Notes under the pieces: model-generated
Told to the model about the DNA's origin: nothing
Databases searched by the model: none
The model's input: only the letters and a program-made list of their open reading frames with translations
Shown here: piece by piece, positions 5,414 to 9,016 of the stretch
Numbering within the stretch: position 1 is the stretch's first letter
How the letters are laid out: each line of letters begins with the position of its first letter
Position numbers and translations under genes: made by a program
DNA from: a virus
DNA length: 64,000 bases
Strand: one strand, 5' to 3'
Virus record (IMG/VR): IMGVR_UViG_3300030060_004050
Location: 1-64,000 of that record

Positions 5414-5460
5414 TGCGCCTTATGCCTCGACAAACCTATTAAAATAATATTAAATTAATT

Positions 5461-5500
5461 AAAAACCCTCCTGGCACTACGCCAAGAGGGTCTCTATTTT
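5461..5500. terminator. bidirectional terminator
   Basis: ACCCTCCTGGC pairs with GCCAAGAGGGT with one mismatch, with an A-run before it and CTCTATTTT after it. It separates the converging genes at 5126-5413 (plus) and 5515-5712 (minus). Confidence 0.75.
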
Positions 5501-5514
5501 CGTGTTATGTGGGT

Positions 5515-5712
5515 TTACCCGCCTCCACCTACGCTACCATCAGAGGCAACATTAAGTGCTTCAGTCATCTCTTGAAACTTTGCGGTCTGCCCGTCACGCA
5601 CTGCCTTAACAGCACCGATTGAACCCGCACCCATTACAGTACCAAGGATCATATACTCTGCGACTTGCATACCCTCTTCGTCTCGTAAAAACTTCTTAAT
5701 TGCTTCAAACAT
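5515..5712 (-). CDS. Flp/Fap-type (type IVb) prepilin-like protein
   Basis: This is a 65-residue protein with the layout of Flp pilins. A short basic leader KKFLRDEEG ends at Gly14, then M-Q-V-A-E19-Y20 reproduces the G/XXXXEY prepilin peptidase motif. A hydrophobic helix follows to about residue 38, then a polar tail ending in GGGG. In Tad systems TadV-type peptidases cut after this Gly and the pilin polymerises at the cell surface. No other tad gene is visible, so host machinery would be needed. AAAGGA lies about 7 nt before the ATG. It is the last gene of the leftward set 7442 to 5515. The chief alternative is an unrelated single-helix phage membrane protein. Confidence 0.75.
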   Translation of the reverse strand: MFEAIKKFLRDEEGMQVAEYMILGTVMGAGSIGAVKAVRDGQTAKFQEMTEALNVASDGSVGGGG

Positions 5713-5760
5713 TTAGTTTTCCTTTCTAACTATTTTGTTTTTTCTTTTATTTATGTGGGT

Positions 5761-6423
5761 TCACCTAAAAGGTAGACCTAAGTTGTTTAGGAAATCTAAT
5801 ATTGTCCACAATGTGTTGTAGTATTCTTGACTTAGGAAGATGGCGTCTGGACTTACTGCATTATTTTGTCCAAATTGAAGTACTCCATCCACATTCTCAA
5901 TAGTAAATGCTCCATTGGGTCCAAACAGGACATTTAAGTCACCCATACCACCAGGCGAGTGTTCTCTGAGGAAGTTAAACAAATCATTCACAATATCTCC
6001 CGTATAATCTCCCTGAAGGAATGATCTTTCCGCCCACCTAAGAAAGTCTAGAACCATTCGAACACTTTCGGCGTTTCCTACGTCCAACAAACCTTCAATT
6101 TCAGTTAAAAATGCCTCCCACAAGTTGTTCCATGGTACACCACCACCAGTCCACCAGTCTGGAGGCATTCCCATTATTCTCGATAGGTTTCCCATAATTC
6201 TTTCCCATACTGGATTGTCCATGATATGTCTACCAATGGAAAATCCAGAATCCGAATCCATGGGTCCAGTTAATCTTCCTTTTGGAAAGTTTGGTTCTGG
6301 TGTTGGACGACCTCCACCACCACCACCATCTGCAATGCGAAGCAATCTACCAAGCACTCTTCCGAGTTGCTCATTTAGACCTTGTTGCTTGTCAAAATTG
6401 TCGTATTTTTCGTAAAGATTCAT
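5761..6423 (-). CDS. putative capsid-targeted internal protein, MNLYEKYDN leader
   Basis: This protein has 220 residues. The leader MNLYEKYDNFDKQQGLNE ends in LNE followed by Gln19, a fit to the T4-type prohead protease site (L/I)xE. A Gly6 run follows at about residue 33, then a mixed helical domain rich in Trp, Asn and Leu. The start overlaps the stop of the upstream gene (ATGA), so translation is probably coupled. The leader recurs at 6996-7442 and 60486-60881. Packaging in the head is inferred from the leader, and no enzymatic motif is seen. Confidence 0.65.
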   Translation of the reverse strand: MNLYEKYDNFDKQQGLNEQLGRVLGRLLRIADGGGGGGRPTPEPNFPKGRLTGPMDSDSGFSIGRHIMDNPVWERIMGNLSRIMGMPPDWWTGGGVPWNNLWEAFLTEIEGLLDVGNAESVRMVLDFLRWAERSFLQGDYTGDIVNDLFNFLREHSPGGMGDLNVLFGPNGAFTIENVDGVLQFGQNNAVSPDAIFLSQEYYNTLWTILDFLNNLGLPFR

Positions 6424-6995
6424 GGTAGTGGGTTACCATATCCGTTTTCTAGGATATCAATCATGATGTCTATGAGTCCGTCTACGATACCAAGGATACC
6501 CTCCATGTAGATCTGAAGTTGTTGATCAATTGCAGGATCGGTGTGGTGGAAGAATATTCTTCCGGCGTCTACATCCCAACTGATGGTTATATCCATGTCG
6601 TACAGATAGTCGAGTAATGAATTTGCAGCAGCCTCACTTGCTGAGTTTGGAGTTCCCATTATTTTTCTCAACATCATTCTGAATGCAAGAAATGCGTCTT
6701 CATGTAGTTGAAAGAGACCTGGGAAAATGTTGGGGAGATTGTTGTAGTATTGTTCTGCAACTTCCCGAAGCATACCTAGAATTTCATCAGCATAACCGGG
6801 GTTTACCAGTGAGTCAGGTTTGAAACCTGATTCTGGTTTTGGTTTTGGTGTACGAGGACCTCTTGGTGGTCTTCCACCAACAATTGGAGGAGAAGGCCTT
6901 CTTGGGATTAAGTCACCAAGATATCTGACGAGTCTACCTAAGGCTTGTTCATCTAACTCTATAAATTCTTTAAATGTGTACATTTTTTTATCCAT
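6420..6995 (-). CDS. putative capsid-targeted internal protein
   Basis: This protein has 191 residues. The N-terminus contains MYTFKEFIELDEQ, which resembles the T4 internal-protein targeting peptide (MKTYQEFIAE type) and ends in LDE-Q. Pro/Arg/Gly-rich sequence follows at about residues 30-60, then a helical domain. Two starts are possible, ATG at 6995 or ATG at 6983. The second gives the cleaner leader and has GGA 8 nt upstream. It directly abuts the stop of the gene before it. Its molecular function is unknown. Confidence 0.6.
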   Translation of the reverse strand: MDKKMYTFKEFIELDEQALGRLVRYLGDLIPRRPSPPIVGGRPPRGPRTPKPKPESGFKPDSLVNPGYADEILGMLREVAEQYYNNLPNIFPGLFQLHEDAFLAFRMMLRKIMGTPNSASEAAANSLLDYLYDMDITISWDVDAGRIFFHHTDPAIDQQLQIYMEGILGIVDGLIDIMIDILENGYGNPLP

Positions 6996-7442
6996 TTATC
7001 CAAACATTTCGTCCAAGTAGTTTCGAATGTCCATCGGGTTGTTTGGATCTGGAGGTCCCATCAAAGGAGATCCCGGCGTTCCAACAGGAGGATCGCCAGT
7101 AATAGGTCCGACAAATCCAGCAGGAACCTCTCCGTAGGGGTTGGAACCGGGAGGACGAGGAGATGCTTGATCAATAAGATCCAAAAGAGATGCGTCATCA
7201 AGATTTGCGTTGTTTGGATCGGTGATAATGTCAACAATCTTGTCTATTTCGGGATCAATTTCAACATCAATATCTGGACCTCGAACAATTCGTTTAACAG
7301 CACGAATTAAAGTCCTGATTAAGTTCTCTTGTAGATAAATGACTTCTTCATTTAACGTATTGTTACGTTTAGCGACGGCTTCTCTTAATTGCTTAAGCAA
7401 AGTTTGTCGATTCCAATTATCGTACTTACCATATAAGTTCAT
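6996..7442 (-). CDS. putative capsid-targeted internal protein, MNLYGKYDN leader
   Basis: This protein has 148 residues. The leader is MNLYGKYDNWNRQTLLKQLRE with candidate cut sites LRE (19-21) and LNE (29-31). A basic helix and a Pro/Gly/Asp-rich tail follow. The ATG at 7442 is chosen because the family leader begins there and GGGAGA lies upstream. The in-frame extension to 7538 reads through a late-promoter-like box and is not coding. First gene of the leftward unit 7442-5515. Confidence 0.65.
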   Translation of the reverse strand: MNLYGKYDNWNRQTLLKQLREAVAKRNNTLNEEVIYLQENLIRTLIRAVKRIVRGPDIDVEIDPEIDKIVDIITDPNNANLDDASLLDLIDQASPRPPGSNPYGEVPAGFVGPITGDPPVGTPGSPLMGPPDPNNPMDIRNYLDEMFG

Positions 7443-7462
7443 AACTGTCTCCCAGTGGTACA

Positions 7463-7471
7463 ATATGTATA
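7463..7471 (-). promoter_or_regulatory. late-promoter-like box
   Basis: TATACATAT on the minus strand, 20 bp before the ATG at 7442. It is the variant of the T4 late box (TATAAATA) that recurs before many structural genes here. Confidence 0.55.
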
Positions 7472-7502
7472 CGGCATATATATTTGATATTGGAGAGAAA
7501 AC

Positions 7503-8135
7503 ATGTCCACACCATTTCAAAAATATCTGATTGAACAACTACAAACGGTTCCGAATATCAAACCCTACGATATGGATGGGGATGGTGTCCCTGATCTCAT
7601 TCAAAAACCAGTGGAGCCAGTGAAAGATCCGTTTCCTGGCATAGATGATGACTATTGGAATCCTCCAATGGCTCCCCCTGACATTGATGATATCATGTAC
7701 GCATATCCAGATTTGTTTAATGAGGTAATGCAGGAGTTTGCAGATTGGATAATTGAAAACTTTGCTCAGGGAAATCCAACCATCACTCGGTTGATGAGAC
7801 TTTTTGGATACGGACCAGAAGATCTTTTGAATGCTAATTTAACCGGACAGCAAATTTTAGAAAGTATCATATATGTGATTCAAAACTGGGGAGATCCTAG
7901 TGTTGGTGGACAACTTCCTGACTTCCCGTTTAGAGGACCTATCATGACTGGAAATCTTGGTTCCGGTGAAGGATTTGGTGGTTTGTTCGGAACTGTTTCC
8001 AATCTTCTCAACGACTACTTGGATCAAATCATGGATGGTACGCTTTACGGAGATGATCCCCAAACGGCAGATTACATTGCACAATTCTTGCAAATGTTAA
8101 TCGATGCAATCAATCAACAAGAAGGAAATCCGTAA
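7503..8135 (+). CDS. putative capsid-targeted protein with a Ca-binding-type loop
   Basis: This protein has 210 residues. The leader MSTPFQKYLIE-Q ends in a LIE-Q site at residues 9-12. DMDGDGVPD at about 24-32 is a calcium-binding loop of the thrombospondin-3/dockerin type. The rest is acidic and helical with Gly-rich linkers. The leader resembles that of the gene at 9468-10457 (MPSPFQTHLI). It diverges from the gene at 6996-7442 across 60 bp, and GGAGAG precedes the ATG. The function is unknown. Confidence 0.65.
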   Translation: MSTPFQKYLIEQLQTVPNIKPYDMDGDGVPDLIQKPVEPVKDPFPGIDDDYWNPPMAPPDIDDIMYAYPDLFNEVMQEFADWIIENFAQGNPTITRLMRLFGYGPEDLLNANLTGQQILESIIYVIQNWGDPSVGGQLPDFPFRGPIMTGNLGSGEGFGGLFGTVSNLLNDYLDQIMDGTLYGDDPQTADYIAQFLQMLIDAINQQEGNP

Positions 8136-8146
8136 ACTTTTCTGGT

Positions 8147-8155
8147 TATACATAA
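8147..8155 (+). promoter_or_regulatory. late-promoter-like box
   Basis: TATACATAA lies 27 bp before the ATG at 8183, in the gap after the stop at 8135. Confidence 0.55.
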
Positions 8156-8182
8156 AACAGACACACTTTCAAGGAGAAACTT

Positions 8183-8374
8183 ATGTCATTTTACATCAAC
8201 GAATTCAAACAACATCTCGCTGACGTTGCTAAGAAGGTAGATCGTCCATACGACGAACCAGCATCACGACGACAGATGCAAGAGACTCGCACCGTGGGCG
8301 AAGTCTATGCTTCAATGCCTAAAAGACCAGTTCCTCAGCACCTAATGGAACAAATTACAAAGCAAAGAAGTTGA
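8183..8374 (+). CDS. small basic protein, unknown
   Basis: This is a 63-residue polar protein starting MSFYINEFKQHL, with a C-terminal HLMEQITKQRS that contains an LME-Q site. AAGGAG lies 7 nt before the ATG. It is followed after 3 bp by the gene at 8378, suggesting coupled translation. No family is recognised. By its neighbours it belongs to the head-accessory set. Confidence 0.6.
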   Translation: MSFYINEFKQHLADVAKKVDRPYDEPASRRQMQETRTVGEVYASMPKRPVPQHLMEQITKQRS

Positions 8375-8377
8375 AAC

Positions 8378-9016
8378 ATGCATAGGTGGAACGAACTATC
8401 TGAAAGCACACAACGTTGGTTGGAGCAAAATGGCTATCAACCGGATCTTCCTGTTCAGAGATCTCTTCATGAATCTTTGAATGAACCATTAGATGAACAA
8501 ACGGGCAGTGCTATCAGAAACTTACTGCGACTCTTAAAAAGAAGTCCTGAAGTTCCAGATACTCCCGGTGGCGGAGGAGTTCCCATCCCCGGTAGTGGTG
8601 GTGTTCCCAAACCATTCGTTATGGATGATCTTGTAAATATGTTAGATGATTTTCCCACCAGCGGTCAAGGTGGAATGCTCGGTATTCTTCAGTCTATCCT
8701 AAATGGAAGTCTAACAGGAAAGGCTCTCGAAAATCAAATGCAATTGTATGGTAGAATGTTCCGACAGTTTGGTTGGGAGTTCTATGACAATGGCGGTAAC
8801 GTAGGAATTAGAGAAATTAAGGGATTTGAGCCTTCCGGTAATCCTGTGGTCGCATCGGAACAAGGATTCTATGATACGTTAGCAGAGATTCTTTCTGATC
8901 TCTTTGGTCAAAACAACATCCCATGGAGTCCCGGAATGGTGATTCCACCAAGTTCGATCTCTCCAAACTTCCCTGCCGGTGGAGGCGGACGATTCGTACC
9001 CTTCGATGAAATTTAA
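8378..9016 (+). CDS. putative capsid-targeted protein, multiple LxE sites
   Basis: This protein has 212 residues. The first 41 residues contain WLE-Q, LHE, LNE and LDE-Q (38-41), more processing-type sites than in its neighbours. A basic helix (RNLLRLLKRS) follows, then a Gly/Pro/Val linker and a mixed domain ending in Gly-rich sequence. There is no catalytic motif. It sits between two small accessory genes on the plus strand. Confidence 0.6.
   Translation: MHRWNELSESTQRWLEQNGYQPDLPVQRSLHESLNEPLDEQTGSAIRNLLRLLKRSPEVPDTPGGGGVPIPGSGGVPKPFVMDDLVNMLDDFPTSGQGGMLGILQSILNGSLTGKALENQMQLYGRMFRQFGWEFYDNGGNVGIREIKGFEPSGNPVVASEQGFYDTLAEILSDLFGQNNIPWSPGMVIPPSSISPNFPAGGGGRFVPFDEI

Follow-up and report, generated by a model that had tools for sequence, protein, structure and literature searches.

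Why would a bacteriophage carry a gene for a pilus subunit? The question is raised by a 64,000-nucleotide stretch of viral DNA (hereafter the window; positions 1 to 64,000 of the 118.5-kb IMG/VR record IMGVR_UViG_3300030060_004050), in which a small ORF had been proposed, from its letters alone, to encode a Flp/Tad-type pilin. The genome is that of a marine T4-like phage, T4-like as the original prediction held, with strong matches to the large terminase, tail sheath, portal, single-stranded DNA-binding and baseplate-wedge families. Models for the prepilin peptidase (PF01478) and secretin (PF00263) had no match in the phage record, which may be incomplete, and we found no pilus-assembly gene of any kind in it. 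Judged from this record, the phage does not appear to encode a complete Tad system, the marks of which would be an assembly ATPase, a secretin or a prepilin peptidase.

The ORF and its flanking signals

The ORF lies where it had been predicted, at positions 5515 to 5712 on the minus strand; it begins with an ATG, ends with a stop codon at 5515-5517, and its 65-residue translation, read from the window, is MFEAIKKFLRDEEG|MQVAEYMILGTVMGAGSIGAVKAVRDGQTAKFQEMTEALNVASDGSVGGGG. Class III signals consist of a hydrophilic, Gly-ended leader of 6 to 26 residues, followed by a hydrophobic stretch with Glu at position 5 (PMC4471445). The window protein has this arrangement: the predicted leader, MFEAIKKFLRDEEG (5671-5712, minus strand), is 14 residues long and ends in Gly14, after which cleavage is predicted, and the mature protein would carry Glu5-Tyr6, these features being invariant among homologues. 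Both the G-x4-E-Y motif and the single hydrophobic stretch on which the proposal of a pilin was based are present; Gly14, Glu19 and Tyr20 do not vary in 14 homologues, and Gly14 aligns to Gly-1 of host Flp pilins. The leader had also been described as basic, which overall it is not (three K/R, four D/E, net -1). The predicted mature pilin (5518-5670, minus strand) is very short, its 51 residues after Gly14 running from M1 through E5-Y6 into one hydrophobic helix and a C-terminal tail of exposed type, with no globular domain; an AF2 model of low confidence (pLDDT 55) is helical, with helices at residues 2-10, 12-39 and 43-53.

Signals on the same strand flank the gene. Direct reading of the sequence places a Shine-Dalgarno-like AGAAAGGA at 5720-5727, and a box resembling a T4-type late promoter, CATAAATA (5748-5755), begins 43 nt upstream of the pilin ATG. 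This box is one base off the exact TATAAATA, of which the 118.5-kb record holds seven copies, six of them no more than 120 nt upstream of a gene, where chance would put about 0.5; this placement indicates that TATAAATA is probably the late promoter of this phage. The late setting proposed for the gene thereby gains a promoter-like motif, and late expression of the pilin from a T4-type late promoter is supported at the level of sequence. Just past the stop codon lies a terminator-like hairpin of 17 pairs with a loop of 3 (5460-5496).

Window positions 5761-9016 encode a run of proteins without database relatives, which have in common short N-terminal motifs (MNLYEKY, MNLYGKY, MSTPFQKYL) that the original prediction read as capsid-targeting leaders. 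The pilin had been said to lack such a leader, and the N-terminal motif of its neighbours is indeed missing from it.

Relatives in planctomycete tad loci

Searches with the window protein itself gave little. Against Pfam, NCBIfam and PHROGs it had no useful match and no Flp model among its matches; PF04964 (Flp_Fap) was not found anywhere in the phage record; a PDB sequence search returned chance matches only, and tblastn in the phage collection a sole match, a 15-residue chance stretch in cyanophages. An HMM search with Flp/Fap models had been put forward as the way to check the pilin; with the window protein as query no Flp model matched, so this check alone would have missed the pilin. The window protein does not reach the curated cut-off of the Flp_Fap model, and canonical planctomycete Flps likewise score under it, which indicates that PF04964 is insensitive here.

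We therefore relied on relatives. Bacterial genomes were scanned with an alignment of the phage homologues, which returned two loci, both in planctomycete MAGs: an uncultured Phycisphaerales MAG (L032) and Planctomycetes bacterium TMED75 (L033). At each, two tandem pilin homologues follow genes for TadA/CpaF, TadB, TadC, a putative lipoprotein and a TPR (TadD-like) protein, and prepilin peptidase and secretin genes sit on the same host contigs. Host homologues, which the original prediction had suggested looking for, thus exist as tad-locus flp genes in these two MAGs. They are the closest cellular relatives of the window protein, which is 71% identical to L032 copy b and also shows 68% identity to a tad-locus flp.

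A profile of the phage pilins aligned by hhalign to nine planctomycete Flp pilins at E 2.6e-14 (probability 98.3), with Gly-1 and Glu+5 in register. Weaker matches within the same bacterial family were plain Flp pilins, for example MKNWIKNFINDERGTAAVEYGITAVVMAGG..., a protein that matches PF04964 at 2.3e-5, and 12 of the 14 phage-pilin homologues gave weak matches to DUF4244 (PF14029); the PF04964 and DUF4244 matches of the relatives all fall below the Pfam curated cut-offs. Both families hold short prepilins with Gly-1 and a Glu-Tyr pair, and relatives of the phage pilin match one or the other, whereas the window protein matches neither. Membership of the Flp/Tad prepilin family, as originally claimed, is supported through these relatives, by identity to tad-locus pilins, the profile match and the weak DUF4244 matches; taking ORF, homologues, selection (below) and profile match together, the product is almost certainly a Flp-type pilin. 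No holin family was matched by the ORF in Pfam, PHROGs or NCBIfam, or by its homologues in Pfam, and a holin identity was rejected because the homology points to Flp.

With the planctomycete tad-locus pilins (L032, L033) the phage pilin shares 55-71% identity, the leader, the Gly-1/Glu+5/Tyr+6 motif and its length. It differs in lying in a phage genome, in being unaccompanied by tad assembly genes, and in a more divergent C-terminal tail: over a 28-residue core it averages 86% identity to the closest host copy, over the tail 52%. The best explanation of these sequences is that the phage pilin is a homologue of the Flp/Tad major pilin, of planctomycete (Phycisphaerales) origin.

Distribution, exchange and partner genes

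Homologues in other phages had likewise been suggested as a check, and two scans of viral contigs located the gene on 20 of them. Sorted by flanking genes, these contigs form at least five groups that share little, where differing flanks, some of them short, means that at the E limits used they have no common protein except the pilin, small partners and a few common genes. The groups are a T4-like one (the window phage and contig L001); one with a phrog_38 terminase (L019-L023, L018); a T7-like one with scaffold, head-tail adaptor and tail genes (L012-L015, L029); one with helicase and primase (L026, L030, L031, to which shared small genes add L017 and L024); and others (L025, L027, L028). The pilin tree is built from short proteins and has weak support, so that independent captures are not countable from it. 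Across 17 phage copies, pooled pN was 0.128 and pS 0.764 (pN/pS about 0.17), with synonymous sites near saturation; that pN is low even so shows strong purifying selection on the pilin protein.

Comparison of related phages points to gain, loss and exchange at this position. In the T7-like L197-L201 the pilin lies between a small ORF (family c1) and the major capsid gene, and it is absent from the same syntenic site in the T7-like L202, L203, L204 and L207. In its major capsid protein L197 shows 88% identity to L204 and 90% to L207, and alignment of L197 with its pilin-less T7-like relatives leaves a single insertion of about 0.4 kb, which comprises the pilin and an ORF for a small basic protein. 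L018 has flanks like those of L021, but its pilin (L018:1181-1375) is of the other sequence type, which hints at a swap of the pilin gene. The two T4-like contigs have pilins that are 91% and small c37 proteins that are 90% identical, against only 33% for the peptidase, which suggests that the pilin and c37 moved between phages as a pair. Nineteen other T4-like records, linked to the window phage through their terminase or peptidase, had no pilin, though most of them are fragments.

In most groups a small protein combining an N-terminal TM segment with a coiled coil (families c3, c17 or c37) adjoins the pilin or lies one to two genes off, and proteins with three TM segments (c5) or a lipobox (c1) are sometimes near it too. 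The c3 family weakly resembles XhlA (E 0.032). At loci without a recognised pilin c37 also adjoins c5 or c1, and in a Roseobacter phage genes for TM and coiled-coil proteins follow a c5-like gene. In the window phage, homologues of c5 and c37 occur a long way from the pilin, at around 108-109.7 kb of the record, so the adjacency is not universal. Searches for annotated relatives of c5, c37 and c1 returned hypothetical proteins at best, and any functions given to the partner genes are guesses from topology.

A second Flp-like prepilin family (for example MDFIKRLFKDEKGGESIEMALVVSTVAIG...) was seen at L174:1970-2158, L175:4001-4189 and L176:4001-4189, in each case directly after a c37-like gene. 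Two of its three proteins match PF04964, at 1.4e-4 and 3.2e-4. A search for its hosts gave no match in one order sample and only weak planctomycete matches in a phylum sample.

Possible roles in infection

Interference with host pili is the role that we favour for the phage pilin, at about even probability. A host prepilin peptidase would remove the 14-residue leader, cutting after Gly14, and the mature 51-residue helix would join the pilin pool of the host's inner membrane, where it could co-assemble with or compete against host Flp, so that Tad pili are changed, stalled or shed. The benefit might be that other pilus-using phages are kept out of the occupied cell or, alternatively, that progeny are not lost by re-adsorption to debris and producing cells. 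The host would have to supply processing and assembly, because peptidase and secretin genes lie on the host contigs and none was found in the phage record. A core so like the host's joined to a divergent, predicted exposed tail suggests either co-assembly with a different surface or stalling of the filament.

Several observations are in keeping with such interference. The pilin is under purifying selection. Gly-1, Glu+5 and Tyr+6 are kept in all copies, and in Caulobacter Tad pilus assembly involves the Glu-Tyr pair (PMC11067988). Presence or absence at one site and exchange of pilin type fit a host-interaction gene. Precedents add to our preference: small phage proteins are known to disable type IV pili (PMC8143254, PMC11436027), and phages exploit Tad or type IV pili as receptors (PMC11067988; suggested in PMC7643831). 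The interference reading supposes both the phage-host link and a use of Tad pili by these phages or their competitors. Against it, in the T4-like and T7-like groups the gene has the look of a late one, whereas classical superinfection exclusion would call for earlier expression, and the lysis-like small membrane genes beside the pilin in several groups point elsewhere.

Those partner genes are why we retain a role in lysis as the main rival, improbable as we consider it. Here the pilin, together with the small TM/coiled-coil and holin-like multi-TM proteins, would help to make the host envelope permeable, or to open it, as infection ends; pilin might load the inner membrane, for instance, or act through the Tad envelope channel. 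The frequent proximity of c3, c17 or c37, and sometimes of c5 or c1, the faint XhlA likeness of c3 and the position of the second Flp family after a c37-like gene all accord with this, but the lysis role of the partners is itself putative. Moreover, c5 and c37 turn up at loci with no recognised pilin and, in the window phage, far from the pilin; a lysozyme gene is found elsewhere in the genome, and close T7-like relatives manage without the pilin.

A pilin with an intact and very host-like assembly core might instead boost the host's pili, the extra subunit raising or re-tipping Tad pili, which mediate adherence (PMC11067988), so that more adhesion or aggregation brings progeny to new hosts. 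We think this doubtful, and more so than a lysis role: late expression would leave little time for building pili, the phage carries no assembly gene, and the tails are unlike the host's. Less probable again is a virion part, or a packaged and injected protein like the predicted packaged neighbours. A late-gene context beside genes of the capsid region, seen in T7-like phages as well as in the window, would suit it, but the neighbours' N-terminal motif is missing, and we judge the role unlikely because the prepilin signal targets the product to the inner membrane and close T7-like relatives with the same capsid genes do without it. Least credible is a neutral passenger or host contamination of the assembled contigs, for although the gene is patchy across relatives it is under strong purifying selection with saturated synonymous sites, bears promoter-like and terminator-like signals, and recurs in several phage groups with clear phage genes on its flanks and no tad neighbours, on which grounds contamination was rejected.

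Interference with host pili has parallels among phage proteins. Tip acts on PilB (PMC8143254), and proteins of Pf4 and other Pseudomonas phages also disable type IV pili (PMC11436027). Like the pilin these proteins are small and phage-encoded, and several are tied to superinfection exclusion; they hit the assembly machinery or pilin expression, whereas here the phage carries the subunit itself and the effect on pili is one we infer. We found no earlier report of a phage-borne Flp pilin in the literature searched, a provisional result given that most subscription journals and all preprints lay outside the search. At its broadest, our reading is that repeated capture has given phages of marine planctomycetes Tad-type pilins (two Flp families, several groups) as tailored late subunits with an exchangeable tail, which would rewire or jam the host Tad system as superinfection immunity or as an unusual envelope-exit module; we hold the case for this to be evenly balanced. 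A pilus subunit carried by phages, under strong selection and common to different groups, would be a new way of handling host pili. The finding suggests that marine-planctomycete phages have to deal with Tad pili, and makes their handling of these pili testable in a poorly known host-virus system.

Elsewhere in the phage genome, L066:8078-9664 (record 108,078-109,664, minus strand) encodes a cluster of proteins, one with three TM segments (phrog_38283), one secreted and bearing a dockerin-like repeat (PF00404, E 9e-4, below cut-off) and one with TM and coiled coil, which is possibly a lysis module. The dockerin-like protein and the pilin together suggest a planctomycete host for this phage. 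At L065:13536-13982 (record 95,536-95,982, plus strand) lies a candidate endolysin gene, whose destabilase/lysozyme-like product (PF05497, E 1.9e-15) may have a signal-anchor. Several genes at L064:12053-18295 resemble, in their sequences, enzymes of sugar-nucleotide or surface-polysaccharide metabolism within the phage genome.
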